Source of the DNA: Candidatus Cloacimonadota bacterium
GTDB taxonomy: Bacteria; Cloacimonadota; Cloacimonadia; Cloacimonadales; TCS61
Direction of reading: 5' to 3'
DNA length: 49,949 nt
NCBI GenBank assembly: GCA_018400535.1
Contig: JAGYMQ010000037.1
Span: forward strand, 1-49,949
The stretch's first letter is position 1; each line of letters opens with the position of its first letter. Position numbers and translations under genes: made by a program. The notes beneath the pieces are model-generated. The model saw nothing but the letters and a program-made list of their open reading frames with translations. It did no database searches and was not told the origin of the DNA. This document shows, one piece after another, positions 23,155 through 45,447 of this stretch.

Positions 23155-26100
23155 ATGAATCCAAAATTTGATGATATTTTAGTAAATTATATCACAAAAG
23201 ATTTTTTAATATTCGAGAATATATTGTCTGATATCAGATCAAGCAAAGGGAAAATAATCGAGATTATCGGCAAACAAGGATCAGGTAAATCTTTCATTTG
23301 CAGAAAATTAATAGACTATTCCCAGAAAAATAAGGGATCCTATCAGCTTTATATTCCAGCAATTTTTAAATTCAATCATTTTCAAGAGATCGTGAAACTT
23401 CTCACAGATATCAGTAACGTTGAATATGATGAGATCGTCCAAAATTCGCAAAAATATCAACTGAAAAATAATTTTGATTTTTTCTTTTATTTTATTGAAC
23501 AATTGATCGAGAGAGATCTTTTAAAAGACCGCACAATAATTATTTATGAAAAACATTATTTGGATGATTACACAACAGATTTCATTCATTATATCAATGA
23601 GTATGTAAAGAACAAATTAATAAATTTTATCATTTTCACCCGCGAAAAAACCTTCACTTTTTCCAAAAAGTATGAATTACCGATTCCTACAACGCAAGAT
23701 TTAAAAAGCATTTTGAAAGAATTATTTCCAGAATCTCATAAAGATTTTAATGTGGAAAGCGAGATCTTGCACAAGATCACAAAGGGAAATTTTTTCCAGA
23801 TCGGTTTCATTTTGCATGATCTAACTGCAAAAAATATCAAACAAAAGATCACTGATTTCCTCGACAAAAAGGTCACAACAACCGAGATCATCAATGAGAA
23901 GATTAAACATCTCAGTGCTGGTCACAAGAAATTACTGATCACGATCTTCCTTTTGGACACCTATGCCTCTTTGGAAAATTTACAGAATTTCTTCAAAAAG
24001 AAAGAATTGGAATCTGGTTTAAAAAAGCTATATGCAGAAACTTTGATCTTCGAAGAGAACAAAGTCTATTATATCAGAAAAACTTCGATCTTGAAAGATT
24101 ATTTCTTTGCCCTTCCATCTAAAGAAAAAAAAATTCATTACAAAAGAGTTTTACCGCAAATCGATGAATCATTGCGAGCAGAATTTCAGCTCACTTTTCA
24201 AGAAGAGGATTTGGATAATTATCAGCAGATCATTGATTATTTGAGGAATATTTGTGATTATCAAAATCTGGTGATAATCTATCAAAAATATTTGAATAAT
24301 ATATCAGATAATGAAAGGAAGATCAGCATCAATACTAAATTGGGCATCGCCTATAAAAATATGAATAAACTGGATACAGCGGCAGAATATTTTCGACAGG
24401 CTCTGAAAAAATGTCTGAAAATAAATAAACCTGCTGATGATATCATATTTTATCTGGCCGAAACCTTACATCATCTCAATTCATCTGCCTACGCTCTGGA
24501 AGTTATCAAAAAATATTCAGCTAAATCAGACAACGCCTTTTTAAAAACCAAAATATTGCTTTTAAAAGCTGAGATCCAGCTGGAAAAGGAAGATTTTTCT
24601 TCTGCTTTGAAAACGATTGAAGAAGCTTCCTATTTTTCTGATCAGATTGAAGATAGAGAATTGAATAACATCATCAAAGCAGATCAAAAAAAGATCAAAG
24701 GTAAAATTTTTTATTATTCGGATCAGAGAAGCAAAGCTACAGGTGAATTTGAAGAAAGCGAAAAACTCTATAAAAAAGCTGATAGTAATGCTGGCCTGGC
24801 AGCGATCTATAATAATCTGGCTGTTCTGGCAATGTTCCGCGGGGAAAATCATCACGCTGAATCGCTGTTCAAAAAGAGCTTAAAATTTGAAGCTGAACGT
24901 TTTAATTTACATGGAATGTCCGTTTGCTACAGCAATCTGGGAAGCTTGTATGAAGACCGAGCTGATTATCAGAAATCTCTGGATAGCTTGGACAAGGGAC
25001 TTCGTATCCAGAAATTATTAGGCGATCGCTTCAGTGTGATAAATATTTATCTGAATATTGGCGTGACTTATATGGACAACGGAAATTTCAAAAAAGCCGA
25101 AACAGCACTGATGAATTCCATGAAGATCGCTCTGGAATCTAATCTGCAAAAAAGCGTCATTGCTACGCATAATAATCTCGGTGCGCTCTATTTCAAATGG
25201 GGAAATTTTAGCGCAGCGATCAAACACAATGAAGAAGCGATCAAGAAATCGAAAGATCTGAATTTTTATGAAGGAATGGTGCAATCCTACAATAATATTG
25301 GTGAGCTTTATGAAAAGCGAGGTGAATACAATCTTGCCTATGATTTTTATATCAAAGGTAAAGACCTGCTTTCAAAATGTTCAGATGAATTTATCAAATC
25401 CGAATTGAAAGGAAATCTGGGCAGCGTCTTGACGCGCTTGCACCAATTCAAAGATGCCTATTCCTGTCTGGTAGAAAGTTTTGATTTTTTTAAAAGTTTA
25501 AATGCAAAAGCGAAGATCATAGAAGGATCTCAAAAGCAGGCGATCTATTTCATTTTTACCCGAAATTTTGAAAGTGCAAATTATTATATCGATTCGGCTC
25601 TGGAACTGGCAGAAGAGATCGAAAATGAATATCAGATCGGGAAATGCTATTATCTGAAAGCACAGGTCGAAAAAGACGATCAAGAACAAGCACTGAACTA
25701 TTTGCAGCAAGCGATCGAAAAATTCGTTAAAACCAATAATAATTATGATCTAGCGCTGGCAAATTATGATTTTGCTAACGTGCTTTTCAAAATAAAAGAA
25801 GATTGGGAACAAGCTTTACAGATCCTGCAAAATAATAAGAAGATCATCAAAAAATTTGAAGCAATCAATCTCTTGGAAAAAAATGATCTGCTCATCCAAA
25901 AGATAAAAAAGAAATTTGCCAATGAGTTAAAAGAATCAAAACTTCAAGAGGATCTGCTCAATAAATTTTATAATGTGACGCAAGAGATCAAAGATATTTC
26001 TGATTTTGATCTGATGTTGGAAACGGCTTTAGATAAATTGATCGACTTTGCCGATGCCGATGGCGGGCTTTTTGCACTTTATTACAATGCAAAAGTCAAG

Positions 26101-27462
26101 GATGCCTGGGAATATTTGATCATGAATAATATTTCTAATAAAAATGAAGATTTCCCGACATTAATGAAGATCTGCGAAGATACTTATTATTCTGGAAATA
26201 ATAAAAATCTGAAGCAACCACACCAAGCACCGCAATATAACAACCTCATCTCCTTCCCGCTAACAGTCCGAAATGACAAAAAAGGCGTGATCATGCTGTT
26301 CATCAAAAGAGGATCGCATTATTTTACTGAAAAGATGGTAAACCTGATCTGTGCTTTGTGCAATCAAATTATCGTGATCGTAGAAAATATATCCTATGAA
26401 AAACTGCAAAAATCCCATAATATGATCCGTGAACAACTGGAAGCTAGCAGCTCCTTTCCAAATATTATCGGTAAAAGCGAAAAGATCCAACAAATATTCC
26501 GCATGATCGATAAGATCAAAAATTCTCCCACAACTGTTCTTCTAGAAGGTCCGAGCGGCACAGGAAAAGAACTGATCGCAAGAGCGATCCACTTCAATAG
26601 TAAAAGACGGAATAAACAATTTATTGCCCAATATTGCGGAGCTCTGCCCGAAACTTTGTTGGAAAGTGAACTTTTCGGCCACATCAAAGGTTCTTTTACC
26701 GGTGCTACTCATGACAAAAAAGGACTTTTTGAAATAGCTGATGGCGGAACTTTCTTCTTGGATGAGATCGCTGATATCAGTCTTTCCACGCAAGCAAAAT
26801 TGCTCAGATTTTTGCAAGAAGGCGAGATCAAAAGAGTCGGCTCCACACACACGCAAAAAGTCGATGTGCGCGTGATCTGCGCTACAAATGTATCTTTGAA
26901 AGATCGCGTCGATGCTGGTGAATTTCGACTTGATCTCTATTACCGCCTGAACGTTATCCGCATGGAAGTTCCTTCTTTGAAAGAAAGAAAATCCGATATC
27001 CCGCTCTTAGCCATTCATTTTTTAGACAAATATTGCAAAAAAATCGGACGACAGATCAATGGCATCACTGATGAAGCGATGAAATATCTAAAAAATTATG
27101 ATTGGCCAGGCAATATTCGCCAGCTGGAAAATGAATTGGAACGAGTGGTAACGCTTTCTGAGGATAATACTTCGGTCAGATCATCCGATCTTTCGGAAGA
27201 GATCTTACGTTTTCAAGAAAATAAGGAAACTTTGAGCTTGCTGGAAAAAGAAGCAGGACAAAGCAATATGGAAGAAAAAGCACAAAATATTTTGGAGATG
27301 AATTCTCTGAAAGACGCTGTGGAAGAATTGGAAAAAGATATGATCCTGCGTGTTCTCAAGGAAAATGATGGCAATCAAACACAATCTGCCAAACAGCTCG
27401 GACTCAGCCGACAGGGTCTCATCAAAAAAATGCAAAGGTATAATCTGCCCAAAAAAGTTTAG
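23155..27462 (+). CDS. NTPase-TPR-GAF-sigma54-interacting transcriptional regulator fusion
   Basis: N-terminal P-loop GKQGSGKS, multiple TPR units, GAF-like region, AAA+ (LLEGPSGTGKELIARAIH, ELFGHIKGSFTGATHDKKGLFEIADGGTFFLDEI), Fis-type HTH (NQTQSAKQLGLSRQGLIKKMQRY). Confidence 0.88.
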   Translation: MNPKFDDILVNYITKDFLIFENILSDIRSSKGKIIEIIGKQGSGKSFICRKLIDYSQKNKGSYQLYIPAIFKFNHFQEIVKLLTDISNVEYDEIVQNSQKYQLKNNFDFFFYFIEQLIERDLLKDRTIIIYEKHYLDDYTTDFIHYINEYVKNKLINFIIFTREKTFTFSKKYELPIPTTQDLKSILKELFPESHKDFNVESEILHKITKGNFFQIGFILHDLTAKNIKQKITDFLDKKVTTTEIINEKIKHLSAGHKKLLITIFLLDTYASLENLQNFFKKKELESGLKKLYAETLIFEENKVYYIRKTSILKDYFFALPSKEKKIHYKRVLPQIDESLRAEFQLTFQEEDLDNYQQIIDYLRNICDYQNLVIIYQKYLNNISDNERKISINTKLGIAYKNMNKLDTAAEYFRQALKKCLKINKPADDIIFYLAETLHHLNSSAYALEVIKKYSAKSDNAFLKTKILLLKAEIQLEKEDFSSALKTIEEASYFSDQIEDRELNNIIKADQKKIKGKIFYYSDQRSKATGEFEESEKLYKKADSNAGLAAIYNNLAVLAMFRGENHHAESLFKKSLKFEAERFNLHGMSVCYSNLGSLYEDRADYQKSLDSLDKGLRIQKLLGDRFSVINIYLNIGVTYMDNGNFKKAETALMNSMKIALESNLQKSVIATHNNLGALYFKWGNFSAAIKHNEEAIKKSKDLNFYEGMVQSYNNIGELYEKRGEYNLAYDFYIKGKDLLSKCSDEFIKSELKGNLGSVLTRLHQFKDAYSCLVESFDFFKSLNAKAKIIEGSQKQAIYFIFTRNFESANYYIDSALELAEEIENEYQIGKCYYLKAQVEKDDQEQALNYLQQAIEKFVKTNNNYDLALANYDFANVLFKIKEDWEQALQILQNNKKIIKKFEAINLLEKNDLLIQKIKKKFANELKESKLQEDLLNKFYNVTQEIKDISDFDLMLETALDKLIDFADADGGLFALYYNAKVKDAWEYLIMNNISNKNEDFPTLMKICEDTYYSGNNKNLKQPHQAPQYNNLISFPLTVRNDKKGVIMLFIKRGSHYFTEKMVNLICALCNQIIVIVENISYEKLQKSHNMIREQLEASSSFPNIIGKSEKIQQIFRMIDKIKNSPTTVLLEGPSGTGKELIARAIHFNSKRRNKQFIAQYCGALPETLLESELFGHIKGSFTGATHDKKGLFEIADGGTFFLDEIADISLSTQAKLLRFLQEGEIKRVGSTHTQKVDVRVICATNVSLKDRVDAGEFRLDLYYRLNVIRMEVPSLKERKSDIPLLAIHFLDKYCKKIGRQINGITDEAMKYLKNYDWPGNIRQLENELERVVTLSEDNTSVRSSDLSEEILRFQENKETLSLLEKEAGQSNMEEKAQNILEMNSLKDAVEELEKDMILRVLKENDGNQTQSAKQLGLSRQGLIKKMQRYNLPKKV

Positions 27463-34558: not shown

Positions 34559-34592
34559 AAGCTGGAGTCCAATTAAATCAGATCTCCAGCTT
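34559..34592 (-). terminator. Terminator of the hydrogenase operon, possibly bidirectional with recG
   Basis: AAGCTGGAG (34559-34567) / CTCCAGCTT (34584-34592); minus strand followed by a run of Ts. Confidence 0.75.
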
Positions 34593-34613: not shown

Positions 34614-36407
34614 TCAGTGTTTGTGCGTCACTTCTTTCGTTGCTTCGCCAGACATAGCATTTCTTTCAAAATAATATGTGTGTAACAATTTATGAGCTTT
34701 CTCTGAATTAGGAGCATCCAGAAAATCTCTGTAACATTTCATAACGTCTTCATTTTGATGAGAACAGCGTGCGGGAAGATCTTTATCTTCTTTGTACAAA
34801 CTCAATCCTCGACGTGCCCGATCGGCAATGCTGCTGCCATAAGGCTGACCACCACCACCGACGCATCCGCCGGGACAAGCCATAATTTCGACAAAGTGAT
34901 AATTCTTTTCGCCAGATTGGATCCATTCCATAACTTTTCGTGCATTTCCCAAACCATGTGCAACGCAAACGTTCAATTCCACATCACCGAGCTCTTTTGT
35001 AGGAACGGTAAGCGAAGCTTCTTTGATTCCAGTAATACCACGCACAGCCTGAATATCAAGATTATCGAGTTCTTTTCCGACCAAAACGTAATAGGCTGTT
35101 CTGATCGCTGCTTCCATCACGCCGCCCGTAGCACCAAAGATCGTTCCAGCGCCTGTGTATTGTCCCATCAGGTCATCGGCTTTTTCTTCGGGAAGGTTTT
35201 TGAAATCGATACCAGCTTCATTGACCATGCGAACGAATTCGCGAGTTGTGAGCACATAATCCACATCCTGGAAACCAGAATCGCGCATTTCTGGTCGATT
35301 AGCTTCAAATTTTTTCGCTGTGCAAGGCATAATTGAAACAGAGCAGATCTTAGCTGGATTCAAATATTCTTTATCGGCAAAATAAGTTTTCACCAAAGTT
35401 CCAAACATCTGCTGCGGAGATTTACAGGTTGAGACATTTTCAGCCAGATCAGGGAAATAAGTTTCCATAAATTTTATCCACCCTGGAGAACAAGAAGTGA
35501 TCAAAGGAAGTTTCCCGCCTTCTTTCAAACGTGTGATCAATTCTGTACCTTCTTCCATAATGGTGAGATCCGCAGAGAAATTTGTATCAAAGACACGATC
35601 GAAACCGAGACGGCGCAAAGCCGCATACATTTTTCCAACCGTGACTTTTTCTGGATCCATTCCAAATTCTTCACCTAACGTGGCTCGAATCGCTGGAGCT
35701 TCCTGCACGACAACATATTTTTCGTCATCCAGAAGTGCATCCCAGACTTGTTCGACATGACTTTTTTCCTTCAAAGCCCCAACCGGGCAATAAACCGTGC
35801 ATTGTCCGCAATTTACGCAGGGACTGTCTAACATTCCCTTATCAAAAGGCGTGGTGATCTTTCCTTCAAAACCGCGTCCATCGATCGTGAGAGCATGAAC
35901 CGTCTGCACTTCCTGACAGACGATGAGACAGCGTCCGCAAGAAATACATTTGTTTGGATCTCGCACGATTGCAAAGCTATCATCATCAACTGGTTGTGGT
36001 TTCCTGACTTTTGGCATATTTTTTTCATCAACGCCAAAGAGATAAGCAAGATCTTGAAGTTGGCAGCGATTATTTTGCTCGCAGGTAGGACATTCCACTT
36101 CGTGATCAGCCAGGATCATTTCCAACAAAGTTCTGCGTAATTCACGTAATTTTTTGCTATTAGTTCTAACTTTCATTCCTTCCCATACGGCTGTGGAACA
36201 GGCTCTTTTCGTGCCATTTTGACCTTCGATCTCCACAACGCAGATACCACAATTTGCCGTAGCCCGCAAATCTTCGTGGTAACATAAGGTAGGAATGTAT
36301 TTACCGGCTTTTTTGGCAGCATCGAGGATAGACGTTCCAGCAGGAACTTCTACTTCCACATTATCAATCCATAGTTTTAGTTGCTTAGCCACTTTACTTT
36401 CCTCCAT
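34614..36407 (-). CDS. hydA: [FeFe]-hydrogenase catalytic subunit HydA, trimeric/bifurcating type
   Basis: [2Fe-2S] domain, DHEVECPTCEQNNRCQ (His-ligated cluster), two 4Fe-4S motifs, H-cluster motifs TSCSPGW, MPCTAKKFE, EIMACPGGCVGGGGQP. Confidence 0.94.
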   Translation of the reverse strand: MEESKVAKQLKLWIDNVEVEVPAGTSILDAAKKAGKYIPTLCYHEDLRATANCGICVVEIEGQNGTKRACSTAVWEGMKVRTNSKKLRELRRTLLEMILADHEVECPTCEQNNRCQLQDLAYLFGVDEKNMPKVRKPQPVDDDSFAIVRDPNKCISCGRCLIVCQEVQTVHALTIDGRGFEGKITTPFDKGMLDSPCVNCGQCTVYCPVGALKEKSHVEQVWDALLDDEKYVVVQEAPAIRATLGEEFGMDPEKVTVGKMYAALRRLGFDRVFDTNFSADLTIMEEGTELITRLKEGGKLPLITSCSPGWIKFMETYFPDLAENVSTCKSPQQMFGTLVKTYFADKEYLNPAKICSVSIMPCTAKKFEANRPEMRDSGFQDVDYVLTTREFVRMVNEAGIDFKNLPEEKADDLMGQYTGAGTIFGATGGVMEAAIRTAYYVLVGKELDNLDIQAVRGITGIKEASLTVPTKELGDVELNVCVAHGLGNARKVMEWIQSGEKNYHFVEIMACPGGCVGGGGQPYGSSIADRARRGLSLYKEDKDLPARCSHQNEDVMKCYRDFLDAPNSEKAHKLLHTYYFERNAMSGEATKEVTHKH

Positions 36408-37967
36408 TTATTTTTTTATTTTTTCTAAAAAATCATCTCTGAAATTATCGATCGCACTTTTAACAGGCATCAGGAGAGATTGTCCCAAAGCGCAAAAACA
36501 GGAAAGATTCATCATCTCTGCAATATGGATCATCTTATCCAAATCTTCTTTTTTGCCTTCACCCTTACGAATATTGTCGATCAATTTGAAAAGTACTTCA
36601 TTACCATTGGCACACGGTGAACATTTTCCGCAAGATTCATGGCGAAAAAAACGAATGACCGACCACAGCATATCGATGATATCAGCAGTTTCGTTCATCA
36701 CCAAGATCGCACCAGAACCAAGTACAGCAGAGTATTCTTTCAAGTTATTATAATCCATTTTTACATCGAGCAATTTGTTTGGAAGGAAAACACCAGCAGC
36801 TCCGCCGACCAGAGCAGCTTTGAATTTTTTTCCTTCTTTCACGCCGCCACCGTATTGATTGATGATCGTGCGCAAAGTTGTGCCCATATCGACTTCACAC
36901 AAACCAGGAAGTTTCACATCTCCCATAACCGTGTACACTTTTGTTCCGGAGCAATTTTCCACACCGAAATGGAGATACCAGTCAGCTCCATTCTGTAGAA
37001 TTGCGGGAACATTCGTGATGGTTTCCACGTTGTTGACTACCGTCGGCTTTTTCCAGGCACCTTCGACGCCAGGGAAAGGTGGTTTGGCACGAGGAGTTCC
37101 GCGATTTCCTTCCATCGATTCGATGAGTGCAGTTTCTTCTCCGCAAACATAAGCACCAGCGCCGATCTTGATCTTGATATCCAGATCAAATCCTGAGCCG
37201 AAAATGTTTTCTCCGATGAGTCCATATTTTTTCGCTTGTTCAATTGCCTTTTTCAATCTGGAAATGCAGAGTTTATATTCGCCGCGAATATAAATATAGG
37301 CTTTTGTAGCACCGATCGCATAGGCAGAGATCATGATACCTTCGAGCAATTTGTGCGGATCACCTTCCATGATCAAACGATCTTTGAATGTTCCTGGTTC
37401 GCCTTCGTCTGCATTGATCACCAAATATTTTTGATCTGCTTCGAGAGGAGCTGTGAAACTCCATTTCAATCCTGTTGGAAAACCAGCACCTCCGCGTCCT
37501 CTTAAGCCAGATTTTTTTACAATTTCCACGATCTCGCTTGGATTAATGGCGAGAGCTTTTTCCCAAGCTTCATAACCGCCAGTTCCCAGATATTCATCAA
37601 TATCTTCTGGATCTATCAGACCGGAATTGGAAAGAACGATCCTTCCTTTGTAATTATAATCATACATTCCGGTGATCTTTTCTTCCAGAACAAGCCGATT
37701 GACGACACGTCCTTTCAGAAAATGTTCTTGCACTATCTCTTTGATATCTTCTTCGGAAATATTGACGTAAGTGATCTGTTCAGGATAGACTAACATACTG
37801 ATGCCAGTTCCAAAATAACCTAAAGCACCTGTTTCCATAATGTTGATCTCATCAGCTAGTTCATATTTTTCTAATTCATTGCGAAGAGCGTTCTCAATCC
37901 TTTTCACTCCAGCTTTCAGACTTTCGTCATCGATACCGATCAGGATATGACTTCGATAGAATTTCAT
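36408..37967 (-). CDS. NuoF-like flavoprotein subunit, second copy, degenerate N-terminal ferredoxin domain
   Basis: [52 protein letters not shown]. The N-terminal domain has no Cys and there is no C-terminal 2x4Fe-4S domain. Confidence 0.9.
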
Positions 37968-38422
37968 TTTGCCCTCCTGCGAATATTTTCGATTATTTGT
38001 TCCACTCTTTTTTCTGTCAGATCGCCAAAAACATCTTCATTGATCATCATAACTGGTGCATTACCACAGACTCCAAGACAGGCGGTCAGTTCCAGAGTAA
38101 AAAGTCCATCTTCCGTCGTTTCACCGATCTTGATACCGAGTAGCTGGCGCAATTTCGCCAGGATATTTTCCGATCCGCGTAAAAAGCAAGGTGGTGATTC
38201 ACATAGTCGGATAACGTTTTTTCCGCGCGGTTTGAAACTGAACATTGAATAGAACGATATCACACCGTGAATGTGACTCGGTGTGATATTCAAATATTGA
38301 CTGATCTCCCAGACAGCATCATCTGAAATATAATTTTGCTCGTTGCTGTCCTGCACATCGTGCAATATAGAAATCAAATTTTCCTTTTTAGGCTCATATT
38401 TTTCTAATATTTTTTTATACAT
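37964..38422 (-). CDS. NuoE-like [2Fe-2S] subunit, second copy
   Basis: HGVISFYSMFSFKPRGKNVIRLCESPPC... TACLGVCGNAPVMMINED. Confidence 0.9.
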   Translation of the reverse strand: MYKKILEKYEPKKENLISILHDVQDSNEQNYISDDAVWEISQYLNITPSHIHGVISFYSMFSFKPRGKNVIRLCESPPCFLRGSENILAKLRQLLGIKIGETTEDGLFTLELTACLGVCGNAPVMMINEDVFGDLTEKRVEQIIENIRRRAK

Positions 38423-38440
38423 TATTTTTCCTCACTTTGA

Positions 38441-40288
38441 TCATTCATAGAGATCTGCATATTTTTTGAATTCCTGTTTGGGTGAAGCATCAAATTGTCC
38501 TGATAACTTTTCGATCACATTGACTGGACATACTTCCACACAAGTGCTGCATTTCACACAATCTGTCTGCACGATTTCATATTTCTCTTCACGGCTACCA
38601 ATGATGCATTTAGCAGGACATTTTTGAGCGCAAAGGCCGCATCCCAGGCATTTATCTTTATCGATGAGAAAATGAACAAGATCAGGGCAAACTTTTGCTT
38701 CACATCGCTTGTTGAAAATATGTTCTTCATATTCTTTGCGGAAATAGCGAATCGTGCTTAGAACAGGATTTGGAGCTGATTGTCCCAATCCACAGAGCGA
38801 AAGTTCTTTCACTGTTTTACCCAATTTCTCCAGTTTATCGAGATCCTCCGGTTTGCCTTCACCTTTTGTAATTCTATCCAGGATGAGATACATCTCGCGC
38901 AATCCGACGCGGCAAGGTGTGCATTTTCCACAGGATTCTTCCACCGAAAATTCCAGAAAGAATTTTGCCACATTCACCATGCAATTGGAATCATCCATCA
39001 CGATGACACCGCCAGAACCCATCATCGCACCTTTCTGCTGCAATGATTCATAATCTATCTGCACAGAAAGATGTTCATCCATCAGACAACCGCCTGAAGG
39101 TCCACCAAGCTGAACTGCTTTGAATTTTTTTCCTTCTGAAATGCCGCCACCGACTTTGTAAATCAGGTCTTTCAATGTAATTCCCATTGGAACTTCAACT
39201 AAACCAGTATTATTGAGGTCACCAGTAAGTGCAAAAACTTTTGTGCCTTTGCTGGTTTCAGTTCCCATTTTAGAGAACCAATCCGCACCATTAATTATTA
39301 TTGCGGATAGATTTGCCAGAGTTTCGACATTGTTGACGAGAGTCGGTTTATTCCATAATCCTGAGATAGCGGGATAGGGCGGTTTTAGAACCGGATGACC
39401 GCGTTTGCCTTCGAGTGAAGCGATCAATGCTGTTTCTTCGCCACAGACAAAAGCGCCTGCACCTGTTCTAACTTCAGCATCAAAAGCGAAATCAGAATCA
39501 AAAATTGCTTCACCAAGAAAACCATATTTTTTGGATTGTTCGATAGCAATTTTTATGCGTTTAATCGCTAAGGGATATTCAGCGCGAATGTAGAAAAAAC
39601 CTTTTTTCGCACCGACAGCATAAGCTGCGATCATCATTCCTTCCAGAATTTTGTGGGGATCACCCTCGAGCAGCGACCGATCCATAAAAGCACCAGGATC
39701 GCCTTCATCACCATTACAGATCACATATTTTTCATCATTTTTTTGATCATAGACAAATTTCCATTTCATAGCTGTGGGGAAACCAGCTCCACCTCTACCA
39801 CGCAAGCCAGAATCTTTTATGATCTGGATAACATCAGCAGGCTTCATTTCGGTCAGCACTTTTCCGAGAGCTTCGTAGCCTCCGGTTGCAATATATTCTT
39901 CGATCTTTTCTGGATTGATCAAACCGCAATTTTTCAGAGCTACTTTTTCTTGCAATTGATAAAAAGGAATCTCTTTTTTGGTTGGATAGACTTCTTCCGA
40001 TTCTTGAACCATCAAGCGTTTGATCGGTCTTCCTTTCATAAAATGTTCTTCTACCAGCTCTTCAACGTCAGTCAGAGCAACTTTTTTGTAGAAGACACCT
40101 TCAGGATAGACCATCATTACCGGACCATAATCGCAAGGCCCCATACAACCAGTTTCGATGATATTTATCTCATCAGAAAGTCCGCGTTTAACAATCTCCT
40201 GCAAGAGTTTTTCTTTGAGCTTCAGTGCACCTGCCGAAACACAACCGGATCCACAGCAAAGCAGAACATCCGTTCGTTTCAGAGACAT
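38441..40288 (-). CDS. hydB: HydB-type NuoF-like hydrogenase subunit with N-terminal [2Fe-2S] and C-terminal 2x[4Fe-4S] domains
   Basis: LLCCGSGCVSAG...[79 protein letters not shown]. Confidence 0.92.
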   Translation of the reverse strand: MSLKRTDVLLCCGSGCVSAGALKLKEKLLQEIVKRGLSDEINIIETGCMGPCDYGPVMMVYPEGVFYKKVALTDVEELVEEHFMKGRPIKRLMVQESEEVYPTKKEIPFYQLQEKVALKNCGLINPEKIEEYIATGGYEALGKVLTEMKPADVIQIIKDSGLRGRGGAGFPTAMKWKFVYDQKNDEKYVICNGDEGDPGAFMDRSLLEGDPHKILEGMMIAAYAVGAKKGFFYIRAEYPLAIKRIKIAIEQSKKYGFLGEAIFDSDFAFDAEVRTGAGAFVCGEETALIASLEGKRGHPVLKPPYPAISGLWNKPTLVNNVETLANLSAIIINGADWFSKMGTETSKGTKVFALTGDLNNTGLVEVPMGITLKDLIYKVGGGISEGKKFKAVQLGGPSGGCLMDEHLSVQIDYESLQQKGAMMGSGGVIVMDDSNCMVNVAKFFLEFSVEESCGKCTPCRVGLREMYLILDRITKGEGKPEDLDKLEKLGKTVKELSLCGLGQSAPNPVLSTIRYFRKEYEEHIFNKRCEAKVCPDLVHFLIDKDKCLGCGLCAQKCPAKCIIGSREEKYEIVQTDCVKCSTCVEVCPVNVIEKLSGQFDASPKQEFKKYADLYE

Positions 40289-40298
40289 TTATTTCCCC

Positions 40299-40667
40299 CT
40301 AATCATTTTTAGTCGCAACAACGAGGTCGCTCACGACTTTACCATTAACGATATGTTCGACAACGATCTTTCGTGCATTTTCAGGAGTTACATTTCCGTA
40401 GGTGATCTTTGGTTTTCCTTTTTCGATCACGTCAACGACAGGTTCCATTGACGATAGTCCTTTTTCTCCAGTTTGTGTGACAAGAACGTCAGTTAATTTT
40501 CGATTTGAAACTTCATCCAAAATAGCTTTCATGACGTCACGAGCACCTAAGGCAATACCAGAAGTGCCCATTCCAACGACAACTTTCACACGACTTTCAG
40601 AATTGCGCATTTTCATTTCGTTTTGCGCTTTTTCTCTGATCTTTCTTAGTTCCTCTAAGGTTTTCAT
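40299..40667 (-). CDS. Stand-alone thioredoxin-like ferredoxin-fold protein lacking all Cys
   Basis: VKVVVGMGTSGIALGARDVMKAI...TGEKGLSSMEPVVDV aligns with (2Fe-2S) ferredoxin domains, but the protein contains no cysteine. Confidence 0.8.
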   Translation of the reverse strand: MKTLEELRKIREKAQNEMKMRNSESRVKVVVGMGTSGIALGARDVMKAILDEVSNRKLTDVLVTQTGEKGLSSMEPVVDVIEKGKPKITYGNVTPENARKIVVEHIVNGKVVSDLVVATKND

Positions 40668-41233
40668 TAGAGTTCCTCCACTTTTATTTTTTTTAATGAT
40701 CTTTTAATATTTTCTTTGATAAAATCCATCACATCGGGATAGGTTAGCGGAACATCACCCAAAATTCTGCGAATAGCACTGGTGGAAAATTTTTCTTTGG
40801 TCTCGTGGGAATTCTGACGCTGGAGAATGATCTCAAAATCGACTTCTGGATGAGAGAAAATCGTGTTCAACAGCGTGCTTTCCAGATCACCCATCGGCAT
40901 TCTGTCGATATGATCATATTGGAAAACAACGTTTATCACAGTTCCCGCGTCCTTTTCACTTTTCAAAGAAAAATCTCCATCTGTCATCAAAGCATGTTGT
41001 TTAAATAATGGAATACCAAGTCCCACTTTTTTAATTCTTTCTTTTTTTGTTGTGTAAAAAGGATTCTCCACTTCTTGTAAAAGTTCTTCATCGATTCCTT
41101 TTCCATCATCTTTTATTCTGATACTCAGAATATTTTCTTTCTCATTCACATTTATCGAAAGTTCGATCTTTTTTGCCTCAGCGCTGATAGCATTTTCCAA
41201 AATATCTAAAATGTGAAGAGAAATATCCTGCAT
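40667..41233 (-). CDS. GHKL/HATPase_c ATP-binding protein
   Basis: N-box LHILDILENAISA, G1 IKDDGKGID, G2 KVGLGIPLFKQHA; no phospho-acceptor His domain. Confidence 0.8.
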   Translation of the reverse strand: MQDISLHILDILENAISAEAKKIELSINVNEKENILSIRIKDDGKGIDEELLQEVENPFYTTKKERIKKVGLGIPLFKQHALMTDGDFSLKSEKDAGTVINVVFQYDHIDRMPMGDLESTLLNTIFSHPEVDFEIILQRQNSHETKEKFSTSAIRRILGDVPLTYPDVMDFIKENIKRSLKKIKVEEL

Positions 41234-41236
41234 TTT

Positions 41237-41725
41237 TTATTCCCGATATGAATCAATGATCTTTTTCAGTTTTTTGCGGGAATCGATGCGACCATAAGTT
41301 TCATCTCCGATCACGATGACTGGAGCAAGTGAACATGCTCCCACGCAGCGCACAGAAGTTAAGGTGAAGAGCTTATCTTCTGTCGTTTCTCCCATTTCGA
41401 TACCCAATTCTTCTTTCAACATTTGGATCAATCTGGGCGCACCTTTCACATAGCAGGCAGTTCCCGTGCAAACGTTGATAACGTGTTTTCCACGTGGTTT
41501 CATCGAGAAGAAATTATAAAAAGTGACAACGCCATAAACTTGAGCCAAGGGAATGTCCAATTTCTCAGAAACGAATTTCTGAACTTCTGCTGGTAAATAC
41601 CCAAAGATCTCTTGGGCAGAATGCAGCACTTCGATCAGTGGATCGCGTTGATCTTTTTTTTCTGTGATTACAGTTTCCAGATCTTTGAACAAAGCTCCAT
41701 GCAGAGCTTGATTATTTTCCATCAT
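41237..41725 (-). CDS. hydC: NuoE-like [2Fe-2S] hydrogenase subunit HydC
   Basis: YGVVTFYNFFSMKPRGKHVINVCTGTACYVKGA...SVRCVGACSLAPVIVI. Confidence 0.92.
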   Translation of the reverse strand: MMENNQALHGALFKDLETVITEKKDQRDPLIEVLHSAQEIFGYLPAEVQKFVSEKLDIPLAQVYGVVTFYNFFSMKPRGKHVINVCTGTACYVKGAPRLIQMLKEELGIEMGETTEDKLFTLTSVRCVGACSLAPVIVIGDETYGRIDSRKKLKKIIDSYRE

Positions 41726-41739
41726 TCCTCCATTTTCTT

Positions 41740-42471
41740 TTATATTCTTATATTTTTTTTATTTCTGCAAGATTTTATAATTGCTTTCAAGCTGGGTTCT
41801 TCTAAATAGAATTCAGTAAATCCTGAACCGATATTTTTCAAATAATGTGCATCAGAATTTCTGATTAAAGCATAATTTTTCAGATACGGATATTTTGTGA
41901 TCAATTTTTTTTCATCGCAATTTGCCGAAATCCCGACAGCTTCGATATCCGTATTTTCTGGAATAAAACCGAGCTGAGTTATAATGCTGTAGGATAATGC
42001 GTTCACATGCGCTGGAAAGACAAAACCCTGTTGATCTTTTGCTTTTTGCAATAAAGCTTCAAAAGACCAGGTGACAGAATTTAGCAAAGCTTTTTTGATG
42101 AATCTTTTGATATTTCCCGCAGCATCGATCACCACTTGATCTCCAAAACTTTCAGGATCATTTTCCAGCGGAAGCAGAGCTTGATACAATTTGGAATTGA
42201 AAATCACGGCTTTTTGCCAATCATCGAATAATACAATGACATGAACCTGTTCTGCCGTTTGCACTTCGACGCCAAAAATGTAATGCAGACCATATTCACG
42301 GGCAATATCACCATAGACTTTTGAATTTGCCAGTGAGTTATGATCGGTGATAGCGATAATATCCAAGCCTGTTTTTTTGGCTTTTTTCATCATCGCGTGC
42401 GGGTCCATTTCCAAGCTTGCACACGGTGATAGAACTGAATGTAAATGAAGATCAGCTTTGAACCAGCGCAA
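41740..42471 (-). CDS. PHP-domain phosphoesterase-like protein
   Basis: KADLHLHSVLSPCASLEMDP, ITDHNSLANSKVY, FGVEVQTAEQVHV, NSDAHYLKNIG. Confidence 0.85.
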   Translation of the reverse strand: MRWFKADLHLHSVLSPCASLEMDPHAMMKKAKKTGLDIIAITDHNSLANSKVYGDIAREYGLHYIFGVEVQTAEQVHVIVLFDDWQKAVIFNSKLYQALLPLENDPESFGDQVVIDAAGNIKRFIKKALLNSVTWSFEALLQKAKDQQGFVFPAHVNALSYSIITQLGFIPENTDIEAVGISANCDEKKLITKYPYLKNYALIRNSDAHYLKNIGSGFTEFYLEEPSLKAIIKSCRNKKNIRI

Positions 42472-42484
42472 ATTTCACAGCCTA

Positions 42485-42826
42485 TTAATTTGAATTGAGT
42501 AGAGCGAATAGAATCCCTGCCAATTCAAAAGTAGATAAAGAACTAGAGATCAGGCAGATGCCATTTTCTTCTGCTTTCTCGATGATAGTTTTTTCTGGAA
42601 CGATATTTTTTGCAAAGATAATGGCTGAAACTTCAGTGTGGGAAGCCACTGCGATCACGTTCAAATGTTTCATGATCGTCATCCAGACATCGCCTTTTTT
42701 AGCATTTCCCAGCACGTCACTCAGAAGATCAGAAACATAGCCACCTTTAATTTCGATAGAATCGATATTATCTTTTTGGGATAATACAGTTGCTTCAATA
42801 TTTTCTAATAACTTCTTTAATTTCAT
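42485..42826 (-). CDS. DRTGG-domain protein (copy 2)
   Basis: GGYVSDLLSDVLGNAKKGDVWMTIMKHLNVIAVASHTEVSAIIFAKNIVPEKTIIEKAEENGICLISSS. Confidence 0.75.
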   Translation of the reverse strand: MKLKKLLENIEATVLSQKDNIDSIEIKGGYVSDLLSDVLGNAKKGDVWMTIMKHLNVIAVASHTEVSAIIFAKNIVPEKTIIEKAEENGICLISSSLSTFELAGILFALLNSN

Positions 42827-44109
42827 AATTTTTTTCCCTGTCTATTTCTGCGCATCAAAACGATACAGTCATCGATCGAGGCTTTGCCGGCAACAATATC
42901 TTCTGCCAGAGCGCGACAGGTTGGAGAGCCGCAGGCAGAACAATCGAGACCGGGCAATTTTTTGATGATCTCATCGATCTGTTTCATTTTGTTAATCGCA
43001 TTTTTGATCGAAGAATCGAGAGCCGTTATCGGACGTGGTTTCAATTCTAAAACATCCATTTTTCCATCGTGATATAAATTTTGGAAATACTCTGTTTGGA
43101 ATTCTTTCGTTGCGCCTTTTCGGATCATATCTTTGATGCGGCTGGAAGCTACAAAAGGATCTTCGATATTAAAAATTCCACCCACACATCCATTCGTGCA
43201 ATTATCCATCACGATATAGTCGAAAGTTTCTAATTGCTGATTTTCGATCTTGATGAGAACTTTGTTTGCATTGTGAATTCCGCTCACAGCCATAGTGCGG
43301 GCTCTTTCTCGCTGTTCAGAATTGATCTGCTCCGCCTCCAATTGGGATATTGCCCAGGTTAAACCTTTGGGAAAAACATCACATTCTTTTTCAGTTTCTT
43401 CTTTCTTTTGCAATTTTCCCATCACTTCTCTAAAAATATCCTGAGCAGAGATTGCTCCGTCTCCCAAATTTTTGTAAGTTCCTTCTGGCTGATGTGTGGC
43501 TGTTACTTGCGCAGCACAAGGCACAATAAGGAAAATGCCAATATTTTCAGGAGCTATTTTTTTTTCTTTTCGAACTTTTTCTCGAAAATAATAGGCAAGT
43601 GCGCTCATCGGAGCTTCCAAATGAATAACATTTGGCAGCAGCGAAGGAAAACGCACCTGGATCAAGCGAACAATAGCCGGGCATTTTGAGGAAATGATCG
43701 GACGAATTTTGGGATGTCTTTTCACATAATCATGAATGAAACTGCTGATAACTTCGGTGACCATTGATTCTTCTGCGATTTCATCGAATCCAATTTGTAA
43801 AATCGCTTTTTTAGCAGCTCGATAATTTATTTTTTGTGAAAATTGTCCTGCAAAGGAAGAAGAGAGGATCGCTATTTTATATTTGAATTTTGATATTGTT
43901 GATAATTTATCAGCAGAAGTCTGGATAGCATTGAAAGGACAAACCTGCACACATTTTCCGCAATCAATGCAGCGATCATTCAATAATTCCACTTTTCCAT
44001 TGCGCACACGCAAAGCTTCTGTGATGCAGACGCGCACACATTTCGTGCAGCCTGTGCAATTCTCTTTGACGATCTTTATGGCATGAAAATATTCTTTTTG
44101 ATTATTCAT
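42823..44109 (-). CDS. [FeFe]-hydrogenase-like protein with altered H-cluster motifs, putative sensory homolog
   Basis: Two N-terminal 4Fe-4S motifs (CTGCTKCVRVC, CIDCGKCVQVC), hydrogenase-like large domain with ISSKCPAI, IVPCAAQVTA, MDNCTNGCVGG, and C-terminal DCSACGSPTC. Confidence 0.85.
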   Translation of the reverse strand: MNNQKEYFHAIKIVKENCTGCTKCVRVCITEALRVRNGKVELLNDRCIDCGKCVQVCPFNAIQTSADKLSTISKFKYKIAILSSSFAGQFSQKINYRAAKKAILQIGFDEIAEESMVTEVISSFIHDYVKRHPKIRPIISSKCPAIVRLIQVRFPSLLPNVIHLEAPMSALAYYFREKVRKEKKIAPENIGIFLIVPCAAQVTATHQPEGTYKNLGDGAISAQDIFREVMGKLQKKEETEKECDVFPKGLTWAISQLEAEQINSEQRERARTMAVSGIHNANKVLIKIENQQLETFDYIVMDNCTNGCVGGIFNIEDPFVASSRIKDMIRKGATKEFQTEYFQNLYHDGKMDVLELKPRPITALDSSIKNAINKMKQIDEIIKKLPGLDCSACGSPTCRALAEDIVAGKASIDDCIVLMRRNRQGKKL

Positions 44110-44599
44110 AAAAAATTACGAGCTCCAAAAAAGTATTTGCTCCTTCTTGCGATTCGATATGCAGAACATCAGCATTTTTCTTGATATTTGGCAAACCCAA
44201 ACCAGCTCCAAAACCCATTTCTCGGATCATTTCATCGGCGGTGGAAAAACCAGGTTCCATCGATTGATTGATATCTTTCATACCTGGTCCATTATCTTTG
44301 AAAACGACGTGAACACAATTATCATAGATATTCGCAATAATATTGCCACCACGGCTATGAGCGGTCACATTGATCTCTGCTTCATAGACAGCGATCGCCA
44401 CGCGCCGCAAGATCGTGTTATCAACGCCGAGTCTTTTCAGAGCCAGCTTAATTTCGGAAGAAGCTTTTCCTGTGTTCACAAAATCACGTTCTCCTATGCT
44501 GTAGCTGAGATCATAATCCGGTTCAGGTTTATTTTCCATAAATTTTTTTGCTTCAGGTTCTTTGGATTCTCTATAATACCAGAATTCGCTCATGATCAT
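44102..44599 (-). CDS. RsbW/SpoIIAB-like ATP-binding (anti-sigma type) protein
   Basis: AVYEAEINVTAHSRGG, VVFKDNGPGMKDINQ, GFGAGLGLPNIKKNAD. Confidence 0.85.
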   Translation of the reverse strand: MIMSEFWYYRESKEPEAKKFMENKPEPDYDLSYSIGERDFVNTGKASSEIKLALKRLGVDNTILRRVAIAVYEAEINVTAHSRGGNIIANIYDNCVHVVFKDNGPGMKDINQSMEPGFSTADEMIREMGFGAGLGLPNIKKNADVLHIESQEGANTFLELVIFYE

Positions 44600-44943
44600 A
44601 TCTTGCAGCTTGCCAAACCAGAATTGTATAAAATTCCACTTGTTTTATAGAGCGTAAATTTGGTTAGGATCAAAGGAAGATCGCGCTTTGCAGCCATTTT
44701 GATGATCTCGTCTGTCGGTCTTTTTCCTCTCACAAAGACAATACCAAAAAGATCGATCATGTCTGCAAGTCTGATCACCTGCGGATTGGTCAATCCTGTT
44801 AAAAGCAAAGTTGGCTCTTTGGTACAGTGCAAAATATCGCTGATCAGATCAGAGCCGAAAGCGCACGTAACATCAATATCAATATTGACATCTTTGGTGA
44901 GCAATTCACCATTCAATGCTTTTATGACTTTTTTTAAATTCAT
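44596..44943 (-). CDS. DRTGG-domain protein (copy 1)
   Basis: CAFGSDLISDILHCTKEPTLLLTGLTNPQVIRLADMIDLFGIVFVRGKRPTDEIIKMAAKRDLPLILT. Confidence 0.75.
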   Translation of the reverse strand: MNLKKVIKALNGELLTKDVNIDIDVTCAFGSDLISDILHCTKEPTLLLTGLTNPQVIRLADMIDLFGIVFVRGKRPTDEIIKMAAKRDLPLILTKFTLYKTSGILYNSGLASCKI

Positions 44944-45096
44944 TCTAAAACCCTTATGATCTCTATTATTTTGAGTGGCAAAATCTTGAGCGAAATCAAT
45001 AGGTCAAGTAAAAAATGAGAATGCATTTTCATTTGCAATCAGCTACTCTAAATGCTAAAGATCAATAAATAAAAACTTCTGCATAATTACATTTTT

Positions 45097-45280
45097 TGTC
45101 ATTCTGTTTGCCTTGACCAAAGGAAACGAAGGCTTGATGGAACTGACACGATTTGTCTGAAAGAATCTAACAGACTTCTTTTAGCTTTACTTCTTTGTTT
45201 GTGAAGAAGATACGAGAAGCATAAAAAAGATAATCACGAGATTCTTCGTAAGTAAAGATGAAATATTCGTCAGAATGTCA
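45097..45280. repeat. Possible MITE-like or degenerate repeat in the hyd-gld intergenic region
   Basis: TGTCATTCTG (45097-45106) and CAGAATGTCA (45271-45280) are inverted with 9/10 match; the interior is non-coding. Confidence 0.35.
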
Positions 45281-45421
45281 TCCAATTTTCTTATTATGCA
45301 AAACTCATTCAATGAATAAATATCTGTTGTAAAAAAATTAAATTGGTGATTACCCACACTTCTTTGCCAAAAATCTAAAAATTTCTGTTGAAGATCGTTT
45401 CAGAGTTTTTTCAGATAAAAA

Positions 45422-45447
45422 AAACCGACCTGCGATCACAGGCCGGT
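45422..45447 (-). terminator. Rho-independent terminator of the gld-like operon
   Basis: Minus strand AACCGGCCTG-TGAT-CGCAGGTCGGTT followed by a T run. Confidence 0.8.

Follow-up and report, generated by a model that had tools for sequence, protein, structure and literature searches.

The hydrogenase literature has not settled what proteins of the group D 'HydS' type sense and how, lacking a PAS domain, they pass on their signal. A locus of Candidatus Cloacimonadota encodes such a protein together with a catalytic [FeFe] hydrogenase. The window analysed here, a stretch of 49,949 nucleotides (nt; contig JAGYMQ010000037.1, assembly GCA_018400535.1), represents an entire contig of a 2.62 Mb Cloacimonadota metagenome-assembled genome (MAG), and the locus consists of 12 open reading frames (ORFs) on the minus strand which run from 44943 to 34614 with intergenic gaps of -8 to +18 nt. 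Our analysis suggests that the module around HydS probably reads the redox state of the cell rather than hydrogen, since relatives attach it to formate dehydrogenase. A specificity of the module for H2 is very improbable, as residues of the diiron pocket have been lost and HydA, HydE, HydF and HydG remain undetected in six genomes that carry it; our best guess is a read-out of NAD(H) and ferredoxin that relies on GHKL ATPases and a PHP phosphatase. With moderate confidence, we propose that, by way of a HydS which carries Fe-S clusters only, an NAD(H)-linked hydrogenase system is tied in this operon to a phospho-signalling module that responds to redox state. The features of the operon are, from upstream to downstream (aa, amino acids):

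44944..45422, minus strand: intergenic stretch in which the operon promoter is expected, the upstream gene being separately terminated
44596..44943, minus strand: DRTGG-domain protein 1, 115 aa, encoded first in the operon (PF07085, 9.7e-6)
44102..44599, minus strand: RsbW/SpoIIAB-like GHKL ATPase, 165 aa (PF02518/PF13581)
42823..44109, minus strand: HydS-lineage protein, 428 aa (Pfam, alignment and tree, AlphaFold model)
42485..42826, minus strand: DRTGG-domain protein 2, 113 aa (PF07085, 1e-6)
41740..42471, minus strand: PHP-family metallophosphoesterase, 243 aa, TTG start (PF02811, 1.4e-10)
41237..41725, minus strand: NuoE/HydC-type [2Fe-2S] protein 1, NuoE1 (PF01257, 1e-51; four Cys)
40667..41233, minus strand: second GHKL ATPase (HATPase), 188 aa (PF02518, 3.3e-14)
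40299..40667, minus strand: Cys-less thioredoxin/ferredoxin-fold protein, 122 aa (weak match to NF041612; no Cys)
38441..40288, minus strand: HydB, 615 aa, with additional Fe-S domains at both termini (Pfam, GAFMD motif, PDB matches)
37964..38422, minus strand: NuoE/HydC-type protein 2, NuoE2 (PF01257, 3.8e-52)
36408..37967, minus strand: NuoF-type flavoprotein 2, NuoF2, 519 aa (Pfam; GTFKD signature)
34614..36407, minus strand: HydA, catalytic [FeFe] hydrogenase, 597 aa (NF040763, 841 bits)
34559..34592, minus strand: intrinsic terminator of the operon (fold energy against shuffled sequences; run of eight T)

HydS comprises an N-terminal domain for two [4Fe-4S] clusters, the H-domain and a C-terminal Cx2Cx4Cx16C motif (Cys 390, 393, 398 and 415), and its AlphaFold model (pLDDT, the predicted local distance difference test, 90.9) adopts the [FeFe]-hydrogenase fold. 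All eight N-terminal and all four C-terminal cluster cysteines are retained in the alignment. With the PAS-linked group C sensors, such as TmHydS of T. maritima and HydS of R. albus, the protein shares a hydrogenase fold and a position near a hydrogenase operon; it differs from them in that Pfam detected no PAS domain, and PAS-bearing group C paralogues occur in relatives (loci L062-L064; L and G denote our loci and genomes). In a tree of 123 sequences, the HydS proteins of the Cloacimonadota order, except for the divergent one of L061, form together with one Spirochaetota sequence a single clade (n=47, support 1.0) that is nested in group D (support of the group D clade 0.79).

A comparison of this clade with 70 other group D sequences revealed a marked difference in the diiron pocket. 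The lysine at CpI K358, represented by Q201 in the window, occurs in 0/47 clade members, while the other group D sequences have 65 K and 4 R. Similarly, P231 (S84 in the window) and A498 are each kept in 0/47 versus 65/70 sequences, and one glycine of the GG motif is kept in fewer than 10% of the clade versus 70/70. TamHydS E289 (V300 in the window) remains in only 4/47 compared to 70/70; TamHydS E252, the other residue of the group D proton path E252/E289, is kept in the window protein (E258). The hydroxyl residue at the position of CpI M353 is likewise missing, being V196 in the window and V, I or A in the clade, and T or S in 68/70 of the others. We take K358 to be the equivalent of Lys237 of D. 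desulfuricans, in line with its C355+3 spacing. Lys237 forms a salt bridge to a CN ligand (PMC13321311), and TamHydS variants at E289 lose activity (PMC10407848). The group D-typical residues R30, R32, E392, D393 and D403 (residues according to PMC13104023) are still present. Since these residues and the accessory Fe-S ligands are kept but the pocket residues are lost, the diiron pocket of the clade appears to erode while structural, and possibly signalling-side, features persist. By descent the protein belongs to the group D lineage, but we do not file it as a functional group D hydrogenase because the M353-position hydroxyl, E289 and the general K358 feature are missing.

The window protein has a close known counterpart in TamHydS of Thermoanaerobacter mathranii, a group D (M2e) protein (PMC8163306, PMC10407848, PMC13104023), which shares the architecture without PAS, the Cx2Cx4Cx16C motif, the loss of C299 and the clade, and whose gene is similarly located upstream of a group A hydrogenase and near GHKL ATPases. 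In contrast to TamHydS, the window protein is devoid of K358, P231, E289 and the hydroxyl at M353, and its module is also tied to formate dehydrogenase and found without maturases.

We also considered a serine at position C355, present in 5/6 HydS proteins directly linked to formate dehydrogenase versus 0/9 of those linked to HydA (Fisher p = 0.002), as proof of H-cluster loss. This exchange is treated as suggestive only, because four of the five sequences form one clade and because the window HydA and A. woodii HydA1 also carry a serine in the L1 motif. Three HydS sequences deserve separate mention. The L061 protein independently has Ile at K358. A single Oscillospiraceae HydS (L115:9986-11330) has the motif VPCSSQ and has lost K358 outside the clade, with P231, GG and E289 kept. 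The orphan HydS-like protein of a Spirochaetota (L082:4871-6190) has lost three of the four H-cluster cysteines and kept its N- and C-terminal clusters; no module genes are located nearby, and a response-regulator-like ORF adjoins.

A second line of evidence is provided by what follows HydB. HydA does so in the window and in L041, L043, L045, L046, L049, L080, L081 and L200. A formate dehydrogenase takes this position in L035 and L048, as a selenocysteine enzyme with an in-frame TGA, and in L039, L044, L047 and L050, as a cysteine enzyme of about 900 aa; nothing recognisable follows in L033, L053, L054 and L057. The contig ends L199 and L197 suggest a formate dehydrogenase continuation also in G041 and G012, respectively, the contigs not being physically joined. 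ORFs of 350-370 aa in G006 and G013, considered as truncated 'HydA-like' hydrogenases, turned out to be selenocysteine formate dehydrogenases halted at the in-frame TGA. A divergent, compact version of the module is found at L061:8356-15514 in G010, with DRTGG, a DRTGG-RsbW fusion, HydS, NuoE, HydB and a formate-dehydrogenase-like protein of 779 aa, in a genome with no HydA and no maturases.

In a survey of 125 genomes of the phylum, HydS was present in 69 and HydG in 61; outside the phylum, HydG accompanies HydS in 40/49 genomes. The absence of HydG alone was dropped as evidence, since HydA is present in 13/17 other HydS-positive, HydG-negative genomes checked, in which the missing HydG looks like an assembly gap. 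Only the joint absence was used: HydA, HydE, HydF and HydG all remained undetected in G006, G012, G013, G018, G041 and G047, genomes of the clade that bear the module and are 73% (G006) or 88-100% (the other five) complete. Thus, the module in these six genomes cannot depend on the binding of H2, and the HydS of the window shows the pocket residues in this same state.

The genes around HydS form a conserved unit. A neighbourhood search, as proposed in a preliminary description of this DNA, shows that the block DRTGG-RsbW-HydS-DRTGG-PHP is kept in about 91-100% of loci from many phyla; close relatives are among the loci counted, and these do not represent independent events. Among 32 usable Cloacimonadota loci, RsbW, DRTGG1 and DRTGG2 are each found beside HydS in 32/32 and PHP in 31/32. 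The loci sampled from other phyla (Bacillota, Bacteroidales, Syntrophorhabdales, Caldatribacterium, Muiribacterium and others) gave 62/65 for RsbW, 59/65 plus two DRTGG-RsbW fusions for DRTGG1, and 58/62 each for DRTGG2 and PHP. As all loci were retrieved by similarity to HydS alone, this clustering is far beyond chance. In Cloacimonadota, the block extends into NuoE-HATPase-(Cys-less ferredoxin fold)-HydB, and in five loci (L129, L134, L136, L137, L147) hydABC is divergent from the block. Together with the gene families, the conserved block supports the view that the operon links a catalytic [FeFe] hydrogenase to a signalling-type module outside the two-component systems. Pfam and NCBIfam gave no histidine-kinase dimerisation domain, receiver or PAS domain among the 12 proteins, in agreement with the earlier statement that neither a histidine kinase nor a response regulator is encoded, and a PAS/two-component reading of the locus was rejected.

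Linkage of M2e HydS to a kinase and a trimeric hydrogenase has been published (PMC3561251, PMC8163306). In PMC3561251, the loci of Caldicellulosiruptor, C. thermocellum and Caldanaerobacter (Table 6) similarly present, in this order, an M2e gene, about four further genes and those of a trimeric bifurcating hydrogenase, and the nearby kinase is read as a hint of regulation; the present locus differs from these by its two NuoE/NuoF pairs, and DRTGG and PHP genes are not discussed in the relevant passages. No paper that treats this block's DRTGG and PHP genes emerged from the literature searched, although subscription papers may hold some, and DRTGG in combination with hydrogenase gave a single, irrelevant match. 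The five-gene block as a unit, its transfer to formate dehydrogenase and the HydS clade with the eroded pocket likewise have no counterpart in the papers searched.

The remaining proteins of the module are of types suited to phospho-signalling. The RsbW-like protein has anti-sigma F factor (SpoIIAB) as its closest PDB relatives, and the residues of its N, G1 and G2 boxes are conserved across 102 orthologues; it resembles the SpoIIAB/RsbW partner-switching kinases in these respects and differs from them in being accompanied by DRTGG and PHP proteins and by a sensor with a hydrogenase fold. In L061, L111 and L123, DRTGG1 and RsbW form a fusion protein. For the second GHKL ATPase, the nearest solved sequence (3sl2) is the ATPase domain of a sensor histidine kinase, and in the PHP protein residues of the metal-ligand type (D7, H9, H11, H44, E69, H77, H155, D207 and H209) are conserved in 95 orthologues. 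The ATP-binding residues of both ATPases and the metal-binding residues of PHP are thus intact in 70-102 orthologues, consistent with the proposal in the preliminary description that signalling would proceed through ATPases, DRTGG domains and PHP. The ferredoxin-fold protein (40299-40667) matches NF041612 at 1.6e-10, under the cut-off, and nonetheless represents a conserved orthologous family. Its orthologues have no cysteine in Cloacimonadota and a few others and three to four in most Bacillota, which points to an apparent loss of the [2Fe-2S] cluster in the former.

In the mechanism we favour, the only cofactors of HydS in the clade would be Fe-S clusters, at the N-terminus, at the C-terminus and probably as a cubane in the H-domain, and the protein would act as a sensor of electron pressure, with electrons arriving from NADH/ferredoxin via the NuoE1/HydB flavoprotein pair. 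Downstream of the redox sensor we infer that its redox state may govern the RsbW-like and the second GHKL ATPase, which would phosphorylate partners, perhaps the DRTGG proteins, and that the PHP protein would reverse this phosphorylation. The output might be an adjusted expression or activity of the attached NAD-linked oxidoreductase, hydrogenase here and formate dehydrogenase elsewhere.

The enzyme part of the operon combines two types of flavoprotein. What separates bifurcating from non-bifurcating enzymes is A/M as opposed to T/K at the NADH site, along with extra Fe-S clusters (PMC7311640, PMC9304861); membership in the non-bifurcating group is defined by T/S and K/S/A at this site plus a group A6 HydA. 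HydB has GAFMD, extra Fe-S clusters and 25 Cys, a bifurcating-type signature, and in the PDB it is best matched by the beta subunits of the bifurcating 7t2r and 7q4v; judged by position, NuoE1 pairs with it. NuoF2, which adjoins HydA, has GTFKD without extra clusters and thus the non-bifurcating instead of the bifurcating signature. Both motifs are invariant among the Cloacimonadota orthologues examined. HydA exceeds the cut-off of NF040763 (765 bits; 'NADH-dependent group A6'), and its closest solved protein is A. woodii HydA1 (7q4v, 1e-184); its L1 motif (35478-35498, minus strand) reads TSCSPGW, not TSCCPGW, with Ser at CpI C300 as in 7q4v. The features of a non-bifurcating NADH-dependent [FeFe] hydrogenase are therefore present in NuoF2 and HydA, and the signature of a bifurcating HydABC is found in HydB but not in the NuoF next to HydA. 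Candidatus Cloacimonas is already among the predicted owners of the non-bifurcating enzyme (PMC7311640). The T/K signature of NuoF2 and the group A6 fit of HydA resemble the non-bifurcating wolfei Hyd1ABC and S. aciditrophicus HydAB described there, from which the present operon differs by the additional bifurcating-type HydB/NuoE pair. In relatives, a separate cassette is made up of NuoE2, NuoF2, HydA and the ferredoxin-fold gene (L182-L186, L191, L195), so that the present locus unites two distinct units, this cassette and the HydS module; elsewhere the ferredoxin-fold gene heads stand-alone NuoE2-NuoF2-HydA and -Fdh cassettes (L182-L191, L198). In L084, L091 and L126 (Bacillota, Deltaproteobacteria) the block is followed by FdxL-NuoE2-NuoF2-HydA, with a second NuoE and a HydB of about 1018 aa in L084 and L091. 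The two-flavoprotein arrangement is thus not confined to Cloacimonadota.

Of the two inputs named in the preliminary description, redox state or H2, the former is favoured, while the latter is weakened by the eroded pocket, the maturase-free genomes and the attachment to formate dehydrogenase. Several observations nevertheless weigh against a sensor with Fe-S clusters only. In the window HydS, all four H-cluster cysteines (C143, C198, C304 and C308) are present, and its own genome has HydE and HydG, so that the protein may contain a diiron site. A CN ligand might also be held by Q or H at K358, and an exchange of Cys for Ser says little by itself, given that TSCSPGW occurs in the window HydA and in A. 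woodii HydA1. Pocket state and maturases do not match perfectly, as HydS of G119 and G154 have K or R358 and no HydA or HydG was found in these genomes; all genomes are MAGs, in which absences are inferential. With respect to the proposed signalling, Pfam and NCBIfam detected neither a STAS antagonist nor a sigma factor among the 12 operon genes. The cysteines and maturases, a HydA within the same operon and the H-cluster and H2 turnover of group D TamHydS (PMC8163306) would suit a true H2 sensor, i.e. a group D protein with a tuned, low-activity H-cluster that controls the neighbouring HydA. We consider this rather unlikely, since K358, P231, E289, the GG-motif glycine and A498 are altered in the clade and kept in canonical group D, and since the same HydS type occurs in genomes without HydA, HydE, HydF and HydG and beside formate dehydrogenase.

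Two other explanations were considered. In most loci, the genes of the ferredoxin-fold protein and of the second HATPase are located inside the enzyme operon, flanked by NuoE and HydB, and the module follows the type of complex and not its substrate, as might be expected if the module served assembly, quality control or repair of HydB/NuoE-type flavoprotein complexes (insertion of Fe-S clusters or subunits) through conformational cycles of the GHKL proteins instead of signalling. However, the RsbW-type kinase boxes, the DRTGG fusion and the PHP phosphatase suit phospho-signalling better, a block divergent from hydABC is typical of regulators, and stand-alone NuoE2-NuoF2-HydA cassettes exist without the module; we thus regard this explanation as unlikely. 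It appears quite improbable that HydS, instead of being a sensor, serves electron transfer as a subunit of a larger complex with NuoE1-HydB, regulated by the other genes: its accessory cluster ligands are all kept and the modules of L033, L053 and L057 end at HydB with no catalytic subunit after it, but the five-gene block occurs without NuoE/HydB in many loci of other phyla, and around the C-terminal cluster the contact residues specific to group D persist, as would be expected of a signalling part.

The operon given in the preliminary description is confirmed. All ORFs, with their order and strand, and the terminator are located where that description had placed them, 11/12 gene families are backed by Pfam/NCBIfam matches, and the terminator folds at -18 kcal/mol (z = -4.6 versus shuffled sequences) with eight T directly after. 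The upstream gene is closed by its own terminator (45448-45423), leaving about 480 nt for a promoter ahead of 44943; a sigma-70 promoter scan scored no better than shuffles and did not identify it, and an Rfam scan revealed no leader RNA within the operon. Elsewhere in the window, 23155-27462 encodes a large, unusual enhancer-binding regulator of 1435 aa with TPR repeats, a sigma-54 interaction domain and a Fis-type helix-turn-helix. The large bacterial signal recognition particle RNA (RF01854; 2356-2618, minus strand) overlaps the 5' end of a hisS-like ORF (1043-2443), which therefore probably starts later.

It is, in our estimate, about evenly balanced whether a Cloacimonadota lineage of supposed H2 sensors has abandoned H2 chemistry, with the hydrogenase fold retained as an Fe-S-only redox sensor at the head of a conserved module of kinases and phosphatase that is swapped between hydrogenase and formate dehydrogenase operons. 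The locus names likely partners of HydS, namely two DRTGG proteins, an RsbW-type ATPase and a PHP phosphatase that travel as one unit across phyla. Homologues with eroded pockets, maturase-free genomes and formate dehydrogenase neighbours represent a natural experiment, and a comparison of HydS from the clade with TamHydS would tell H2 sensing from general redox sensing. If our reading is true, canonical group D HydS modules may likewise report the NADH/ferredoxin balance, and not H2 itself.

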